From positions 1-64,000 of the forward strand of contig JADQBG010000015.1 of the NCBI GenBank assembly GCA_016278725.1: a stretch of DNA of 64,000 nt. Direction: 5' to 3'. A model generated the notes under the pieces. The model was not told where the DNA came from. It made no database searches and saw only the letters and a program-made list of their open reading frames with translations. The DNA comes from Actinomycetota bacterium (lineage in GTDB: Bacteria > Actinomycetota > Thermoleophilia > RBG-16-64-13). Both the position numbers and the translations under genes were made by a program. Positions 3,801 through 41,121 of the stretch are shown here, piece by piece (position 1 is the first letter of the stretch; each line of letters begins with the position of its first letter).

Positions 3801-5489
3801 AGCCTGCGCCGGGCGATGACGCGGGACAAGAACCGGGAGCAGATGCGCGAAATCGGCGAGACTTTCGTGCATCACGCGGTGGCCAACGGGGTCCCCGAAG
3901 CCGCCGCCCGGGAGATCTTCCGCCAGCTCGAGGGTTTTGCCGCCTACGGCTTCAACAAGTCGCACTCGGTCTGCTTCGCCGTCATCAGCTATGCCACCGC
4001 TTACCTCAAGGCCCACTACCCCGCCGAGTTCCTCTGCGCCGTGCTCAACAATCAGCCGATGGGTTTCTACACCCCGCGCACCGTGCTGAACGACGCCCGT
4101 CGCTTCGGCCTCGAGGTGCGGCCGCTGGACATCAATCTGTCGGGGCGCGGCTTCACCGTGGAAGACGTTCGGCCGCCGGCGGCCGGCTACAACCCTTTCG
4201 CCCTGGCCTGGACCCGGGATCACAACTGGGGACTGACCGCGGAGGATCTGGCCGAACTCGAGGCCATCCACGGAGATGGCGTTCCCCTGGGCCGAAACGA
4301 GTGGTTGGTGGTGGACGGGTCGGTCCGCAGGCAAGAGGAGATTGGCGAAGTCAAAGGGGCCGAGGAGCCGGGGGAGCGGCGGGCGAAGTCGACAGCAGAC
4401 GGGCAGGCGGAGTCGGCAGCAGAAGCGCGGGCGGTCTCCGTCAGGGGCCACCGTCCTTCGGCCCGGGGCGGGGTGTCGCCCGGAGCCTGCCTGGCCCCCG
4501 CGGGCACCCCGGATCCCGGAGGGGGCACAGCGCTGCGCGTGGGCTTGTCGCAGGTCAAGCAGATGTCGGAGCGGGCACTCAAGGCGATAGAAGCCGAGCG
4601 GCAACAGGTCCCCTTCGAGAGCTTCGAAGATTTCTATCTGCGTACGCGCGTCGAGTATCCGATAGCCGAGAACCTCATCCGCCTAGGCGCTTTTGACTCG
4701 CTGGAGCCGGACCGCACCGAACTCCTCTGGCGGCTCCCGCTTCTGCACGACCGCCTCGAATCCCTGGCCGGCGCCTCCGGCCGGCGGCAGGGACAGCTCA
4801 AGGCCTTCACCTCTCCTCCCCAGAAGACCGGCCTGGTCCGGGAGTGGACCCGCGAGGATAGAGTCAGGGTGGAACTCGAGCTGATGGGACTGACGGTGAC
4901 CTGCCACCCCCTCGAACTCTACGAAGAGGAGCTGCGCCGTCTCGGGGTCCGGATGAGCTATGAGCTCCCCGATCTGGGCGACGAGGTGAGGGTGACGGTG
5001 GCGGGCGTCTACGAGCGGGCCCAGAACCCCTGGATGCGTTCGGGGCGGCGCACCATGTTCCTCACCCTGGAAGACGCCTACGGCCTCTTCGAGTGCGTGG
5101 TTTTCGAATCCAAGTTGCCCCGCTACGCTCCCATCGTCGCTCGAGCCACCTATTTTCTGGTCAAAGGGCGCCTGCAGAACAATCGCAAGCGCGGCCTGGC
5201 GATCGTCGCGGAGGAGATCCACGACCTGGAGGACGTGCTGGCCCGAATGGAAAGACAACCCCACAGCGGTGCGGGGCGCGCCTCCGGGGCGCGCCCCGCC
5301 ACCCTGGGTAGAGAAATCGAGCAGCCAAGCCTCGAAGAACGCCGGCGAATGCGGGGGCAGCGCGAACAAGAGGTCTACGGCGCGGGCTCGGTCGATCCGC
5401 GAAGCCGCCCGCAGACCGAAGCCGGCGGTGAACCGGCCAAGCGGCCTCCGGGCGCGGGCAGCAACGCGATCCCCAAACGGGTGGGCTGA
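816..5489 (+). CDS. dnaE2: Error-prone DNA polymerase III alpha subunit (DnaE2)
   Basis: A DNA polymerase C family protein. The PHP domain begins near residue 105 (FINLHAHSNFTFLGG), the polymerase active site has PDIDVDF at 691-697, and the DnaE2-type segment NNQPMGFYTPRTVLNDARR and an OB-fold near residues 1395-1475 follow. DnaE2 performs translesion synthesis in SOS mutagenesis, normally with ImuA/ImuB, which are not in this window. The ATG at 816 follows GGAGG at 798-802; a TTG at 765 after AGGAGG is an alternative. At about 1557 residues it is far longer than the usual 1050-1100. The excess is a low-complexity N-terminal extension (1-104) and three inserts (about 302-435, 501-558 and 1164-1239). 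Two inserts contain short AT-rich patches unlike the rest of the gene. Confidence 0.93.
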   Translation: MIPKAGSGPDKRGERGKANLGSFPVKGFSPTYGALYNDGRHTDDGSKFGYGHHNHRTENGEVGKKTGGPADSAEAEGTEGTAADPADAADFPGRFDQDGSGQDYPFINLHAHSNFTFLGGAARIGELVDRAAELGQPGVALTDRDGLYGIVRFAKACERRGVRAILGVELCVEPVFPEESPQGPPQDPLAPSLEASEAPQAPPLSTAMHPYRLVLLAENREGYANLCRLVSEAHLSTPERDRPPTVNAELLRRHRTGLICLTGGRQGEVGRLVDAGREADAERALEELRRIFGTDHLFVELTHFGYEPHREVQAGQDGAPVYHKVRGDDGRLRHYAHDPGHPAARPAPHPGRGGTPGAPRDPGPRRAPRQAPPKTDNHSYSDAIGIAKHIKRKPANPADRLDLPRDHPQRLNPADYDVGFHDAGDAWKLSCGAYCDRLLGLARRCGLNAVVTTDAYYSRPEDRDLHLVLRAAGRDEPLSGYPERVPGARCLRSRKALADELTPLLSLHVENNALFNANRKPQPDASLLAETQPHQEALQERLRAGTTNAPPLLSVSPLDTPWLIAQRCQVDLELGRYHFPQVPIPAGETAYSLLAKRCFRGIERRYRPVPPRAVELLEHELAMIEQMGFAHYFLVVHDIVRWARAKGIAASGRGSAGNSLVCHLLDITASEPIGHNLLFERFLNPNRREMPDIDVDFCSARRDEVVEHIYRTFGDENVAVVANVNTASPRSAVRLVAEALGFAPLEVNTLAKNVPRHGDSAKIREYLAGGWPELQNSLLQDEKRYGPLLDLVERLDSFPLHLGTHLGGFVIADRPVTYYAPLQWAAKGVVVTQFNKDDVADLGLVKMDILGLRTHSAVMETVHLIRQRTGRRIDPYELSPEDPAGDDPAAYEIISNGGSIGLFQLESAGQRNLATRLRERTFDDIIAAIALYRPGPLEAEMITPFIDRRWGVAPVELPHSTMAEALRDTYGVILYQEQVLRVAQLVAGFSPAEADSLRRAMTRDKNREQMREIGETFVHHAVANGVPEAAAREIFRQLEGFAAYGFNKSHSVCFAVISYATAYLKAHYPAEFLCAVLNNQPMGFYTPRTVLNDARRFGLEVRPLDINLSGRGFTVEDVRPPAAGYNPFALAWTRDHNWGLTAEDLAELEAIHGDGVPLGRNEWLVVDGSVRRQEEIGEVKGAEEPGERRAKSTADGQAESAAEARAVSVRGHRPSARGGVSPGACLAPAGTPDPGGGTALRVGLSQVKQMSERALKAIEAERQQVPFESFEDFYLRTRVEYPIAENLIRLGAFDSLEPDRTELLWRLPLLHDRLESLAGASGRRQGQLKAFTSPPQKTGLVREWTREDRVRVELELMGLTVTCHPLELYEEELRRLGVRMSYELPDLGDEVRVTVAGVYERAQNPWMRSGRRTMFLTLEDAYGLFECVVFESKLPRYAPIVARATYFLVKGRLQNNRKRGLAIVAEEIHDLEDVLARMERQPHSGAGRASGARPATLGREIEQPSLEERRRMRGQREQEVYGAGSVDPRSRPQTEAGGEPAKRPPGAGSNAIPKRVG

Positions 5490-5505
5490 CGGCGGCCCGC
5501 CGCCC

Positions 5506-5736
5506 TCAGTGCTCGAGTTCCAAGGTGGTCACCGGTGCTCGCGACCCATCCGGCGCGCCTTCGTATACCTCGGCCTCGGAGGCAGCGTAGAGGTTACCGA
5601 GCAGAAATAGCGCCGAGCCACCGATAATCAGCGCCACGGTGAGCGCGCCCAACACCTTGAGCGGGCGCGAAGGCCGGCTCAGCAGATAGGCCGCGAGCAC
5701 AAGCAGGGAGACCACGATCAAGAAAAGCAGAGACAT
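5506..5736 (-). CDS. Small two-helix membrane protein, unknown function
   Basis: A 76-residue protein with two hydrophobic helices (about residues 2-19 and 28-50) and a short polar tail. The ATG at 5736 has a GAGGAGG ribosome site just upstream. It lies 10 bases after the secreted-protein gene on the same strand, so the two are probably co-transcribed. I do not recognise a family. Confidence 0.65.
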   Translation of the reverse strand: MSLLFLIVVSLLVLAAYLLSRPSRPLKVLGALTVALIIGGSALFLLGNLYAASEAEVYEGAPDGSRAPVTTLELEH

Positions 5737-5746
5737 CTTCGCCTCC

Positions 5747-6448
5747 TCAGGTGCCCTTGGACCAGCTGACGCTACCGTCGCGGTACACGGTGAACTCGAT
5801 CCAGGGCAACACCTGCTGGATCATGTACCCGGCCACCACGTCGCGGAAGTCACCCTGCCATCCGCGGCGCCAGGAAGAGAAGCCTTTGCCGCCAAAGGAC
5901 CATTGGTTGAAACGAGCCTTCTGACAGCGCCAGAAGACGGCGTAGACCGAAGCGGTTGGATTCGAACGTCCCCCCACTATCTGAGAACCGTTCCACTCCC
6001 ACTCCACCGTATGGGTGTAGGACCACAAACTGTTGCCCAGATAGGACTTCCCCGTGTAGGTGATGCTCATCTCGCTTTGGTAGACGCCTCCACCAAGATA
6101 GTCGGCAGGCGGCTTGTACCAGCCGAAGTAGGCCGGTTCCAGCCAGACCGTCGCCGTGCTCCTCTCCGGATCGGCCAGGGTGAGAACCCCCAACAGACGA
6201 CCCGGCTCTCCGGCCGGCCCCTCCCGCATCTCGATGTAGTAGGTCTCCTGGCCCCGAACCCAGCGGTCCTCGGCCTTTTGCGGATGTCCCCTGACCTTGC
6301 CGATGGTCGGTCCCCAGGCGGCCGCCTCGCCCGCGGGCGCGAACTCGTCCCCGCCACCCCGATTTGCAGAAGCGGCGCCCGCCAATAGCAGCTGCCACAA
6401 GATCAGCGCGACCAGCCCAGCCGACAAAATCAGCTGCTTCTTCCTCAT
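5747..6448 (-). CDS. Exported protein, unknown function
   Basis: About 233 residues. It begins with a typical signal peptide (MRKKQLILSAGLVALILWQL, then LLAGAASA), with likely cleavage after ASA near residue 28. The mature part has many Trp and Tyr residues and reads like a beta-rich extracytoplasmic domain. The ATG at 6448 is chosen because a GGGGGAGGG ribosome site sits 8-9 bases before it; a GTG at 6457 is too close to that site. It is followed by the small membrane protein at 5506-5736. No family recognised. Confidence 0.7.
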   Translation of the reverse strand: MRKKQLILSAGLVALILWQLLLAGAASANRGGGDEFAPAGEAAAWGPTIGKVRGHPQKAEDRWVRGQETYYIEMREGPAGEPGRLLGVLTLADPERSTATVWLEPAYFGWYKPPADYLGGGVYQSEMSITYTGKSYLGNSLWSYTHTVEWEWNGSQIVGGRSNPTASVYAVFWRCQKARFNQWSFGGKGFSSWRRGWQGDFRDVVAGYMIQQVLPWIEFTVYRDGSVSWSKGT

Positions 6449-6661
6449 TCGAACCACCCTCCCCCAGACTCCGCGGGAGTCCTTAGCTTGCCCTCGAGTG
6501 AGGATAGGTTCGGGGCCGGAGAAAGCGGATCGAACTTTGGCCTGAGATTGACCCTCTATCCCGCCGAGGCCGGCGCACCCGTTCCCCGGCCTGGCGGAGA
6601 TGATCCAGCGCCGGCCCTCCCCGGCAGGAGAGCCGGTGATAGGCCCTCTAGAGCCCCCGTC

Positions 6662-37200: not shown

Positions 37201-37249
37201 TTGCCCACGCCGCCGGTTCGCGAGATGATGATATCTATGAATCTAGATA
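37201..37249 (+). promoter_or_regulatory. Promoter and inverted-repeat operator over the arsR start
   Basis: TTGCCC (37201-37206) and GATGAT (37224-37229) are 17 bases apart. The predicted transcription start is then at about 37236, next to the ATG at 37237, so the message would be leaderless or nearly so. TATCTA (37232-37237) and TAGATA (37244-37249) form a perfect 6-bp inverted repeat with a six-base spacer across the start codon, matching ArsR-type operators and suggesting autorepression. The -10 is only a fair match. Confidence 0.55.
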
Positions 37250-37596
37250 CCTCCATCCCTGGCAACGGAGCGGATTCGCTGGCCGCATTCTTCAAGACTC
37301 TCAGCGAACCCGCCCGCCTGCGCATCATCATGGCGTTGACCGACGAATGCCGGCCGGTAACCGAGGTAGTCCGGCTCACCGGTCTCCCCCAACCCCTGGT
37401 CTCCCACCATCTGCGCATCCTCCGCGACGCCGGGTTGGCCCGCGGCGAGCGTCGCGGGGCCTACGTTTTCTACTGACTGCGCTCGGGGGCGGTTCGTGAA
37501 ACCGTAATGACCGGGCGCGAGGCCCTGGCCAGCCTCGAGCAGGCCTCCGCGGCACCGGCCCCGGCCCTCCCGAGCAAGGCCCGAGGAAGCCGATGA
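37237..37596 (+). CDS. ArsR-family regulator with in-frame UGA, candidate selenoprotein
   Basis: Winged-helix ArsR protein (ALADPSR-type motif as TLSEPARLRIIMALT, recognition helix LPQPLVSHHLRILRDAGLARGER). UGA at 37474-37476 interrupts it at residue 80, directly after GAYVFY where relatives continue with the last wing strand and C-terminal helix. Beyond the UGA the frame continues LRSGAVRETVMTGREALASL and stops at 37594-37596, overlapping the next ATG (ATGA), as expected for a real coupled gene end. A hairpin with a CGUGA loop begins 13 bases downstream of the UGA. With readthrough the protein is 119 residues; without it, a 79-residue truncated form. A C-to-T nonsense mutation of an Arg CGA codon is the main alternative. 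Confidence 0.7.
37490..37504 (+). promoter_or_regulatory. Candidate SECIS hairpin after arsR UGA
   Basis: CGGTT (37490-37494) pairs perfectly with AACCG (37500-37504) around the loop CGTGA, 18 bases between UGA and loop. Bacterial SECIS elements are small hairpins in the coding region with a G/U-containing loop about 16-37 bases after UGA. Loop sequence, stem length and spacing are the same as after the thioredoxin-like UGA at 38911. Confidence 0.6.
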
Positions 37597-38696
37597 GCGA
37601 AGCCCCGAGCTTGACCGAAGCCTGTTCGGTTTGCGGCAGCTCTCTCGAATACCTCGACCGGGCGGTGGGCGCGGTCTGCACGCTCTGCGGTACGGCCGAA
37701 AGCGGTCACGTGCGCTGCCCGGAGGGCCACTATCTCTGCGAAGCCTGTCACGGCCGGGGCGTCGAGGCGCTGATTCGGGGCACGCTCTTGGAATCAAAGG
37801 AGACCGTCCCCACCCGGCTGGCCGAGGAACTGCTCGAACTACCCCAACTCCCCATGCTGGGTTGCGAACACGCGCTTATCGCCGGCGGAGCCCTGATGGC
37901 TTCGCTGAGGAACCGCGGGTTGGGGGTCAGCCAGGCGCATGTAGATGAGGTTCTGGTGCGCAGCAAGCGCCAGGCCGTCGGCGCCTACTGCGGATTGACC
38001 GGAGTGTGCGGAGTAGTACCCGCCCTCGGCGCCTGCTACAGCGTCTTGGTCGGGGGTCAATGTGGCAAAGGACCGGAGACCCGTGGGGCGATGGAGCTGG
38101 TTTCCCGCCTGGCCGCGGTTACCGCCGCCGAGGCCGACCCGGGCTGCTGCAAAGCCTTCGTCAGAACGGCTTTGATCGCCACCGAGCTCTACCTCGAGGA
38201 GAAGTTGGGGATCGCGGCGACGGAACCGGTTGCGGCCGTCTGCGCGCACAGCGACCGCCATCCCCACGGCTGCAGGGGACCGCTATGTTCGTACCATCCC
38301 GAGGCGGACAAGAAGGCCCGGCCGATCTCGCCAACCAGCCAAGGAGGGCCGATGATGACGAGCCAAACCGGCGGAACCGAGCATCCCAGCACCGCTACCC
38401 ACGCCCAGGACCGATACGACGAGTTCTTTGAGTTCGCCTACGCCGACGGAGCCCTCGACCGGCGCACCAAGATCCTGATCGCCTTGGGGGCCGGACTCGG
38501 TGCGGGCTGTGCTCCCTGAACCTCATACTGCCTCTCGGTGGGGAGAGAGCTCGGCATAACGGAGGCGGAATTCGACGAAGCGGTGCACCTCGCCATGACC
38601 GTCGGCGCGAGCAAGGCCTTGATGTTGGCGCGCGCCGAGAGAGGCGCGCTCGGCTTCGCCGCGGCAGCGGTGGTGCCGGGGAGCGAAGCCGGCTGA
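37593..38696 (+). CDS. DUF5714 protein fused in frame to an AhpD-like selenoprotein
   Basis: The first about 250 residues match DUF5714: four Cys-pair N-terminus (CSVCGSS, CTLCGTA), CPEGHYLCEACH, LGCEHALIAGGALMASLRN, GAYCGLTGVCGVVPALGACYSVL, DPGCCKAFV and a terminal HPHGCRGPLCSYHP. There is no stop before the AhpD-like domain, whose own ribosome site and ATG lie at 38341-38357. In that domain UGA (38517-38519) gives C-A-P-U, residue 309 of the fusion. The frame continues to TGA 38694-38696, about 367 residues. A fusion protein, an internally initiated short protein, or both may be made. The ATG overlaps the arsR stop (ATGA). Confidence 0.72.
38355..38696 (+). CDS. AhpD-like (carboxymuconolactone decarboxylase family) selenoprotein, internal start
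   Basis: Starting at ATG 38355 behind a strong AAGGAGG (38341-38347), the 113-residue product is a small AhpD-like domain: YDEFFEFAYADGALDRRTKILIALGAGLGAGCAP, then UGA as residue 55, then TSYCLSVGRELGITEAEFDEAVHLAMTVGASKALMLARAE. The UGA falls on the second Cys of the AhpD CxxC (CAPU), the nucleophile position in AhpD-type peroxidase or disulfide chemistry. AhpD-like selenoproteins with CxxU are an established bacterial selenoprotein family. The same bases are part of the longer DUF5714 fusion. Confidence 0.72.
38532..38547 (+). promoter_or_regulatory. Candidate SECIS hairpin after AhpD-like UGA
   Basis: CTCTC (38532-38536) pairs with GAGAG (38543-38547) around the loop GGTGGG, starting 18 bases after the UGA. 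The stem is short but lies at the right distance and has a GU-containing loop, as in bacterial SECIS elements. Confidence 0.5.
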
Positions 38697-38862
38697 GGGG
38701 GAACGGGTAGCGACGCCGGTGCGGCGTCAGAGACGGCTCAGGCCGACGGTGCGGACGGCGGCCCAACCGGGGGCCGCGCGGAAGCGCCGGCCCCGTCCGG
38801 CTGAAAGTGAGGCGGGCCGCCGGGCGCGGCCGCCGCAGAGAAAACTCAGAAAAGGAGGATGC

Positions 38863-39156
38863 ATGGCCCCCACCCTGCCCCATATCGACCTGATCTCCAA
38901 AGGCCCCTCGTGAGTGCTCTGCAATCTCGCGCGTGACGCGATGGCCGCGATCGAAACCGAGAACCCCGGGCGCTTCACCTGGACCATGCTGGACGCCTCC
39001 ACCCGGGACGGGGTCAAGCGCCTACAGGAGCTTCGCCCCGCCGCCGGACGGCAGATCCCCGTCCCCGGAGTCCTCATGGACGGGGAGATCGTCTTCGACA
39101 ACATTCCCGAAATGGAAGAGTTCAGCGAGTGGCTGGCGGGCCAAACCGGCGTCTGA
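38863..39156 (+). CDS. Thioredoxin-like selenoprotein (UxxC)
   Basis: A 97-residue thioredoxin-fold protein if UGA at 38911-38913 is selenocysteine 17: MAPTLPHIDLISKGPS-U-VLCNLARDAM. This places U-V-L-C where small thioredoxins have CxxC. The later GRQIPVPGVLMDGEIVFDNIPEMEEFSEWL carries the cis-Pro segment and last strand/helix. AAAGGAGG (38851-38858) is an excellent ribosome site for ATG 38863, so truncation to 16 residues would be pointless, which argues for readthrough. It probably acts with the AhpD-like protein as its reductant. A 166-base GC-rich gap precedes it. Confidence 0.78.
38927..38941 (+). promoter_or_regulatory. Candidate SECIS hairpin after thioredoxin-like UGA
   Basis: TCGCG (38927-38931) pairs perfectly with CGCGA (38937-38941) around the loop CGTGA, which starts at the 19th base after UGA. 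Loop and spacing are identical to the hairpin after the arsR UGA. Confidence 0.62.
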
Positions 39157-39223: not shown

Positions 39224-40069
39224 TTAGGAGCCCGCCTTTCGCCCGGTTACGAGCACGCTCGCCACCTTGCCCTCCAATACCGACGCTGCCCTTTGCAGCA
39301 AGTCGTCCCGATGCCCGTTTTCGCCGTCGTCGACGAGTTCGGAACCCAGCAGTTCGCGCAGCTGAACGATGTCGTAGACCAGCCGCTCATCGATACCCAC
39401 TTCATCGAGACCCGCGGAGCGGAGCCCCTCCAGGTATTCCTGCTCGGAGACAGCGCCCGCGATGCAGGACGAGTAGAGATCAGCATCCTCGCGCACCCAG
39501 TCGGGCAAGTCCTCGGCCACCAAATCCGAGATTCTCAGGCGGGCACCCGGGGCCATCGCGCGCGCGATCTCGGCGAAGACCCGAGGCTTATCGGGTGACA
39601 GATTGACCACGCAGTTGGAGATGACCACGTCCACCGTCCCGGTCTCGACCGGCAGGTCCTCGATGTAGCCCTGTCGCACCTCGACATTCTCGTAGCCGGC
39701 TGCGGCGATGTTCCGGCGCGCCCGGTCGAGCATCTCCTCGGTCATATCGACGCCGATCACCCGGCCTTCGGGTCCCACCTTCTCGGCGGCAAGCAGCAGG
39801 TCGATTCCCGCTCCGCAACCCAGATCGAGCACGGTCTCGCCCGGGCGCAGCTCGCTGAAAGCGGTCGGATTCCCGCAGCCGAAGGAATTTTCCACCGCAT
39901 CCGCGGGGAGCGCCTCCAGTTGGGACGCCTCATAGCCGGCGCTTTGCACGACCGTTCCCTTCTGCCGCGGCTCGCCGCAGCAACCCGGGCCGCAGCCGCA
40001 TCCGCTGTTGATCGCCCTGGTGTAGGCCTCGGATACCTGCCGCCTGATGTCGTCGCTACTTCTCTCCAT
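39224..40069 (-). CDS. arsM: Arsenite S-adenosylmethionine methyltransferase (ArsM)
   Basis: A 281-residue ArsM. The SAM motif [20 protein letters not shown] (80-99) and the three arsenite-binding cysteines are present: Cys65 (SFGCGNP), Cys153 ([12 protein letters not shown]) and Cys202 (SSCIAGA), matching the As(III)-binding triad of the family. An extra Cys-rich patch ([10 protein letters not shown], 23-32) lies near the N-terminus. It methylates As(III) to methylated arsenicals. It overlaps arsR by 14 bases, so the two are coupled. ATG 40069 follows GGAGGAAGGG. Confidence 0.93.
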
Positions 40070-40433
40070 GGTTCCCTTCCTCCGACGATGCTGCGGGACA
40101 ACAAGATTCGAATGCGTCGGCCAGATTGCGCAGGTAGCGGACGAGCCCTCCGGTCTCCAGCCGATACCAGACCTCCCGGCCTCTCCTCTCCGACTCGACC
40201 ACTCCCGCCTCACGCAAAATGGTGAGGTGGCGAGAGACCACGGAGAGATCTTGCGGGCAGCAGGTGCCCACCTCGGTAACGCGAAGCGGCCGCCCGGCCG
40301 AAGCCAGGCTACTCAAAATGGCGGCTCGGCTGGGGTCGGCCAACGCCTTGAAAAGTTCCACCGCGATCGGTTCGCGGAGACCCTCGTTCTCCCCCTCCGG
40401 GCAATTGTCTAGGTTGCACGCTTGCACATTCAT
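40056..40433 (-). CDS. arsR: ArsR-family arsenic-responsive repressor
   Basis: A 125-residue ArsR/SmtB winged-helix protein. ALADPSRAAILSSLAS and the recognition helix LSVVSRHLTILREAGVVESERRGREVWYRL are clear. Cysteines at 6 and 11, the vicinal pair 58-59 just before the recognition helix (GTCCPQDLS), and a C-terminal CC are candidate As(III) ligands. It controls the downstream arsM. The promoter and operator at 40420-40468 place the transcription start at the ATG, so the message is probably leaderless. Confidence 0.92.
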   Translation of the reverse strand: MNVQACNLDNCPEGENEGLREPIAVELFKALADPSRAAILSSLASAGRPLRVTEVGTCCPQDLSVVSRHLTILREAGVVESERRGREVWYRLETGGLVRYLRNLADAFESCCPAASSEEGNHGEK

Positions 40434-40586: not shown

Positions 40587-40967
40587 TCACCTGAGCCAGC
40601 CGTCCAGGGCGGGCGACGATGCGCTCACCGTTGGGACGACCCACCCATCCAGGGCAACCGGGGAGGCAACTCGCACCCAGCCGTCCAAGGCCGCGGCCGG
40701 CGCATTGGCCGCCACCCAGCCGTCCAAGGCTACGGGCGCCTGCACCGCGGCCCAGCCGTCCAGCGGCACGGGTTCAGCGGCGTCGCCCCACCCCCAAAGG
40801 ACCACGAGGGCGAGCATGAGAATCAAGAGAATGGCCAAAGCACCGCCCAAAAGGCCGGCGCCGGTCTCCTCCGGGTGCCGGAGCGCCTGGCGCAGGGGCG
40901 CTACCCGCCGGTTCCTGTCGACCCTTAGACCACTCTTGAAGGGCGCAGGATGTCTAATAGCATTCAT
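40587..40967 (-). CDS. Single-pass membrane protein with five LDGW repeats
   Basis: A 126-residue protein: a basic N-terminal segment, one membrane helix (about residues 38-60, LLGGALAILLILMLALVVLW), then a C-terminal tail made of five LDGW units at 69-72, 81-84, 94-97, 106-109 and 121-124, spaced 12-15 residues apart by short Ala/Val/Pro-rich linkers. The ATG at 40967 follows AGGTGA. I do not recognise the repeat. By helix orientation the tail is probably outside the membrane. Confidence 0.72.
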   Translation of the reverse strand: MNAIRHPAPFKSGLRVDRNRRVAPLRQALRHPEETGAGLLGGALAILLILMLALVVLWGWGDAAEPVPLDGWAAVQAPVALDGWVAANAPAAALDGWVRVASPVALDGWVVPTVSASSPALDGWLR

Positions 40968-41121
40968 GGCTGTCACCTCGACAGGCAAACAATGATAGAG
41001 ACGGAGGCTCTGCATTCTGCCGGGCCAGCAGATGATCTATTCCCTTAGTAACACTTGTTACAACCTCTCTTCACGCTGTTCGGTTGCGTCGCCGTTGTCT
41101 CGGCGATAACAGAGCCAAGCC

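Follow-up and report, generated by a model that had tools for sequence, protein, structure and literature searches.

A 2026 catalogue of prokaryotic selenoproteins comprises enzymes, redox proteins, transporters and unknowns, and its FmdB-family entry is described only as a "putative regulatory protein" (PMC13188914). The catalogue attributes to Haft and Tolstoy 2025 the MduS, MbdU, ArsM-AhpD and ArsM-DUF2284 double selenoproteins and the HUIPC thioredoxin-like family, and it links the methyltransferase/DUF2284/DUF5714 toolkit to metal(loid)s (PMC13188914). We compared our locus with this set through the NCBIfam models NF045649, NF045648, NF041537, NF041536, and NF047660. The Sec-assisted organometallic (SAO) system is likewise a multi-selenoprotein operon, with organometal chemistry and a thioredoxin-like UxxC protein, SaoT (PMC13188914). 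Among regulators, TsoR (NF045707) is an ArsR/SmtB protein linked by its name to the Tso multi-selenoprotein operon, but it is not called a selenoprotein in NCBIfam and is absent from the catalogue's selenoprotein table. ArArsR, an ArsR repressor that senses arsenicals, binds methylarsenite through a loop residue, Cys41, and a β-sheet residue, Cys82, and for As(III) it additionally requires Cys80 (PMC11868830).

The window analyzed here is a stretch of 64,000 nt on the forward strand of contig JADQBG010000015.1 (Actinomycetota bacterium, GCA_016278725.1), with a GC content of 66%. Its plus strand carries an operon that starts with arsR-U (37237 to 37596), encoding an ArsR/SmtB-family repressor with a UGA codon for Sec80 at 37474 to 37476 (FYUL). 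The TGA stop of this gene overlaps the start of the next one (ATGA), which encodes a fusion of a DUF5714 domain (PF18978), an AhpD domain with a CxxU motif (PF02627), and a C-terminal tail ending at UGA 38694 (37593 to 38696). The UGA of the AhpD domain is at 38517 to 38519, in the motif CAPU (CAPUTSYC). The last gene (38863 to 39156) encodes a thioredoxin-like protein of the UxxC type, with its UGA at 38911 to 38913 (PSUVLC). The initial annotation had already pointed out the in-frame UGAs at 37474, 38517, and 38911, and we confirm that all three frames run into family homology and have sensible gene ends. It had also treated DUF5714 and the AhpD-like part as two proteins and 38694 as a plain AhpD stop; instead, a single open frame runs from 37593 to 38519 and beyond, with the same fusion in L031, L034, L035, L036, and L051, and the C-terminal UGA, probably a further Sec codon, had been missed.

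Using the DUF5714 protein as the query, we found six further genomes with a close DUF5714 protein (57 to 86% identical). Five of the six (G001/L031, G006/L032, G013/L034, G012/L035, and G004/L036) also encode ArsR and the thioredoxin-like protein, with the gene order unchanged and each TGA at the same residue. The AhpD domain has its TGA at the same residue in four genomes (L031, L034, L035, and L036), and the corresponding motif in L051 is CQPU. Overall, the operon recurs in related genera down to 52 to 60% identity, with the UGA of ArsR retained down to 52%. The named relatives are metagenome-assembled genomes (MAGs), given in public records as actinobacterial MAGs. DUF5714 genes of Clostridia and Desulforudis (L037 to L039) lie in surroundings without a match to ArsR, AhpD or thioredoxin, and a scan of IMG/VR for DUF5714 returned no relatives, giving no sign of viral origin. 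A divergent DUF5714 gene (L029, genome G002) has an in-frame TGA, between KRGTF and ALL, where its relatives have a residue other than Cys; it is possibly an error or decay.

Are these UGA codons read as selenocysteine? The source genome has a tRNA-Sec (74.9 bits), SelB (above the cut-off), SelA (556 bits), and SelD (401 bits), so that all the components which the initial annotation had proposed to look for are present. Its SelD gene (G000 C26:106754-107677, L072) has one in-frame TGA itself, which is consistent with a Sec-containing SelD. It is highly improbable that normal termination codons or sequencing errors account for the UGAs, with the downstream homology a remnant or a coincidence. 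Errors do occur in MAG assemblies, and with a GC content of 66% a TGA often has an open stretch behind it: 37% of the TGA codons in the window have at least 38 open codons behind them, so an open frame after TGA proves nothing here, and we dropped open-frame length as evidence. However, 10 genomes have the UGA of ArsR at one and the same residue, and a Cys replaces it only where SelA is absent. Furthermore, the dN/dS of the post-UGA codons between the window and L031 is about 0.17 for the thioredoxin-like protein, 0.19 for AhpD, and 0.29 for ArsR, and that of ArsR between L050 and L068 is 0.12; a value near 1 for ArsR between L034 and L036 comes from a short post-UGA stretch with few changes. 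In most comparisons, including the clearest ones, the codons after the UGAs are under purifying selection, which also speaks against ordinary stops or errors.

The hairpins 3' of the UGAs argue in the same direction. Taking as SECIS-like a hairpin 16 to 37 nt after the UGA with a G starting the loop, the strict bacterial form follows all four UGAs of the window, compared to 9.3% of background codons. The hairpin of arsR (37489 to 37505, GCGGTT-CGTGA-AACCGT) has a 6-bp stem and a 5-nt loop 18 nt 3' of the UGA, an offset found in 11/11 Sec versions. In this hairpin, 97% of the cells are paired, three pairs show compensatory changes on both sides, which stand against a stop or an error, and the covariation is 0.415 versus a shuffled mean of 0.275 (0/500 as high), with slid controls at 0.01 to 0.22. 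The SECIS-like hairpin of AhpD (38528 to 38550, loop GGTG/GGTC) lies about 17 nt 3' of the UGA, and in L034 and L035 its stem is perfect over 9 bp. That of the thioredoxin-like gene (38927 to 38941, TCGCG-CGTGA-CGCGA) does not vary in its four inner base pairs across six loci and takes the strict form in the window and L031 only. Sec machinery, a conserved UGA with coding sequence after it, and a SECIS-like hairpin are thus found together, with a Cys homologue for ArsR only. On this sequence evidence, ArsR, the AhpD domain and the thioredoxin-like protein are almost certainly selenoproteins. The selenoprotein reading of the initial annotation is therefore strongly supported by the sel genes, by a Cys/Sec swap, seen for ArsR, and by the hairpins; the sel genes are in place, a Cys does align with a Sec, and the frames have not decayed.

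The DUF5714 domain of the fusion has a Cys-rich N-terminal part resembling a zinc ribbon, followed by more invariant Cys residues; a fold search with its model gave no significant match. The tail after AhpD has the motif F.A..V.....G.GU. This motif is followed by UGA in L031 to L036, with a second stop two codons further on in L032, L034, L035, and L036, so that the tails of these four relatives are of the UXX-star type (GGGUTG, GGGUST or GSGUST before the stop). In L032 and L033 the tail comes directly after DUF5714, without AhpD, and in the distant relative L051 the protein ends in CUTP-TAA and its tail aligns to the end of MduS. By comparison with these tails, the UGA at 38694 to 38696 probably represents a fourth Sec codon, C-terminal and of the UXX-star type. 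Only slightly less than an even chance is left for a true stop of the fusion in the window's genus, which would give the operon three Sec codons instead of four: the second stop of UXX-star is missing in both the window and L031, and the codons after 38694 show no third-position bias between these two (7, 6, and 4 changes by codon position). Yet the preceding tail motif is recognizable in all loci, and the hairpin that follows (38712 to 38728, GACGCC-GGTGC-GGCGTC), a candidate SECIS for this UGA, is identical in the window and L031. Across seven loci, 95% of its cells are paired, with little covariation (65/500 shuffles as high).

The thioredoxin-like protein is 64 to 91% identical in five relatives, and its UGA is invariant at the same residue. 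Its motif is SUVLC, and it scores 51.9 bits against the HUIPC model NF047660, below the cut-off of 105, which places it outside that family as modeled. A PDB sequence search with its profile found no match.

The ArsR protein belongs to the ArsR/SmtB family by profile (NF033788 at 74.1 bits, cut-off 55; also PF01022) and has a winged-helix fold, with SmtB, CzrA, SqrR, and BigR among its fold matches. Its second-best NCBIfam match is TsoR, at 60.1 bits versus a cut-off of 115, and no match to TsoA, TsoB or TsoC was found among the proteins scanned. The in-frame UGA is kept in 10 genomes of three families, including one genome from another class. A class-wide search yielded ten TGA-bearing arsR genes and one gene without the stop, all with E values of 1.2e-31 or better, whereas the remaining ArsR matches are weaker than 1e-21 and none of them has a TGA. 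A phylum-wide profile search gave two ArsR proteins of the Sec type beyond those of the five relatives with the operon, both TGA-bearing and one of them in another class. The YUL context is invariant in the eight Sec rows of the aligned set and in L059, L060, and L067. In a tree, the Sec and Cys forms cluster together (support 84/86), apart from other ArsR proteins; the tree was built with C in place of U and shows the grouping, not the direction of the swap. One genome, G006, has a second, divergent Sec-ArsR (L070) in addition to that of L032, adjoining a gene similar to MtaA/CmuA-type methylcobamide methyltransferases (5441 to 6493, minus strand).

The Cys form is the ortholog in G518 (L061), with YYC at the Sec position and Cys38 kept. 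G518 is a one-contig genome without SelA, whereas SelA is found in 10/10 Sec-ArsR genomes. A tRNA-Sec scores above the cut-off in 9/10 of the latter, the exception being G012, which is 78% complete; the best tRNA-Sec scores in G518, 49.4 and 47.2 bits, are at the cut-off and at the level of secondary matches in other genomes. Cys38 and Sec/Cys80 are the only Cys/Sec columns invariant across all 11 aligned ArsR rows, and Cys38 is also kept in the L067 paralog. In the AlphaFold model of the ArsR (pLDDT 86.7), β1 spans residues 39 to 40, β3 residues 76 to 81, and α5 residues 84 to 105. The position of the UGA just before α5 raises another possibility, that the codon gauges the selenium supply: when selenium is lacking, the repressor would end at residue 79, lose its last helix and fail to dimerize, and expression would track that supply. 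We consider this improbable, since the ortholog in the genome without SelA has a Cys there and Cys38 is co-conserved, both pointing to a chemical role of residue 80. Moreover, the other products of the operon also need Sec, and derepression without selenium would yield truncated products.

How might such a repressor be wired to its operon? A promoter, TTGCCC-17 nt-GATGAT (37201 to 37229, plus strand), ends 7 nt 5' of the arsR ATG, predicting a near-leaderless start. The motif TTGCNN-N17-NANNNT, 6 to 7 nt 5' of the arsR ATG, is common to all six related loci, and it occurs once among 634 ATGs on the plus strand of the window. In other Sec-ArsR clusters, the palindrome ATAAACN4GTTTAT lies just 5' of arsR (L050, 4614 to 4629; L051, 5320 to 5335, possibly overlapping the arsR start; L068, 5313 to 5328), and among 75 loci it has no occurrence outside the genomes of these three. 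It is a candidate operator of Sec-arsR, and the sequence is suggestive of operator binding by ArsR in L050, L051, and L068 only.

The neighborhood bears on what is sensed. Downstream, on the minus strand, are an arsenite methyltransferase gene, arsM (39224 to 40069; NF008823 at 288.6 bits, cut-off 263), and a second arsR without UGA (40056 to 40433; NF033788 at 71.2 bits), which is found at the same position in L031 only. The initial annotation had proposed that the operon detoxifies or senses arsenicals or peroxides beside arsR-arsM. The pair is indeed present, but in this genus only, being absent at the other four operon loci; arsenic detoxification as the sole reading is weakened, as ArsM adjoins the operon only within the genus. 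Neither an efflux pump nor an organometal lyase was recognized within the operon. Elsewhere, Sec-ArsR neighbors an MtaA/CmuA-type methyltransferase (L051 and L070) or an MduS-like methyltransferase and a DUF2284 protein. The MduS-like methyltransferase is assigned by position near L050, L068, and L069 and in L069 also by score (267 bits), and one also lies near the Cys-ArsR of G518 (230 bits). These methyltransferase and DUF2284 partners favor a signal and substrate that is a methylated metal(loid), a reading that matches the neighbors of Sec-ArsR no worse than inorganic arsenic or peroxide would; since the partners differ between lineages, the ligand could differ too. Two small proteins were also observed: a predicted one in the window (40587 to 41015, minus strand) that has a single hydrophobic segment and repeats LDGW five times, and a DF-family-like one with an in-frame UGA (GFSUR) in the Sec-ArsR clusters of L068 (from 6625) and L069 (from 6723), at 36 bits to NF049942, below the cut-off.

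We propose that Sec-ArsR proteins form a subfamily of repressors whose sensing site is a Cys-Sec pair and whose target operons encode selenoproteins, so that a methylated metal(loid) would be both detected and processed by selenium chemistry (probability roughly 0.6). In this model, ArsR would bind its own promoter (autoregulation). Cys38, just before β1, and Sec80, at the end of β3, would form a two-ligand site for soft metal(loid)s in the winged helix; their closeness is read from the predicted secondary structure, and the precedent is the pairing of a loop Cys with a β-sheet Cys in ArArsR. A methylated or trivalent metal(loid), such as methylarsenite or organomercury, would bind ArsR and release it from the DNA. 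The Cys-rich DUF5714 domain may then hold the metal(loid), the CxxU of AhpD and the UXX-star tail would act on it by thiol/selenol chemistry, to be recycled in turn by the UxxC thioredoxin-like protein. For the window itself, a selenium-dependent detoxification operon under a Sec-containing ArsR repressor has somewhat better than even odds, and the metal(loid)-sensing mechanism of Sec-ArsR stands at about an even chance.

The main rival of metal(loid) sensing is a redox switch, in which peroxide or reactive sulfur species would convert Sec80 and Cys38 to a selenenylsulfide, disrupting the wing, releasing the DNA and inducing the AhpD/thioredoxin antioxidant pair. The operon does encode AhpD- and thioredoxin-type thiol/selenol oxidoreductases, SqrR structures in the reduced and disulfide states are among the ArsR fold matches, and RexT, an ArsR, senses H2O2 through Cys40-Cys41 in α3 and controls a thioredoxin (PMC8960804). 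We nevertheless regard the redox switch as unlikely, for the recurring partners are methyltransferases, DUF2284 and the Cys-rich DUF5714 protein, not catalases or peroxiredoxins.

A Sec-ArsR would carry the use of selenium over to gene switching and provide a metal(loid) sensor amenable to tests, with possibly tighter binding than thiol sensors. It would also mean that annotation pipelines cut such regulators off at the UGA, and Sec-ArsR gives a handle on the substrate of recently described selenoprotein neighborhoods. No ArsR or other clearly DNA-binding regulator is in the 2026 catalogue (PMC13188914). An ArsR selenoprotein is likewise absent from NCBIfam names, the deep-Sep paper and our literature searches, with Haft and Tolstoy 2025 covered through the catalogue and the NCBIfam names, and we found no literature joining selenocysteine, ArsR, and SECIS.

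In comparison with known systems, the operon resembles the MduS/MbdU/ArsM-AhpD/HUIPC set in its AhpD CxxU, its DUF5714, its UxxC thioredoxin-like protein, and two Sec residues per protein. It differs in that DUF5714 is joined to AhpD, where MbdU has DUF2284 and MduS and ArsM-AhpD have a methyltransferase. None of those families is a regulator, and the proteins of the operon score far below their cut-offs: 289.7 bits versus 600 for MbdU (NF045648; profile positions 37 to 281 of 468), and 65.4 and 101 bits for MduS and ArsM-AhpD, through the AhpD part only. No protein scanned matched a Sao family. RexT, SqrR, and BigR have the ArsR fold in common with Sec-ArsR, but these thiol-switch repressors work through disulfide or related sulfur chemistry with Cys residues elsewhere and without Sec. 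ArArsR of Arsenicibacter rosenii, with Cys41, Cys80, and Cys82 (PMC11868830), serves as a precedent at the level of its loop/β-sheet layout and works without selenium. The enzymatic parts (AhpD, UXX-star, and thioredoxin) are the catalogued selenoprotein toolkit, although the DUF5714-AhpD fusion matches no model at its cut-off. We see in Sec-ArsR a selenoprotein family that is new and regulates transcription, within an operon of the familiar multi-selenoprotein kind, and this suggests that selenium can be built directly into a bacterial gene switch.
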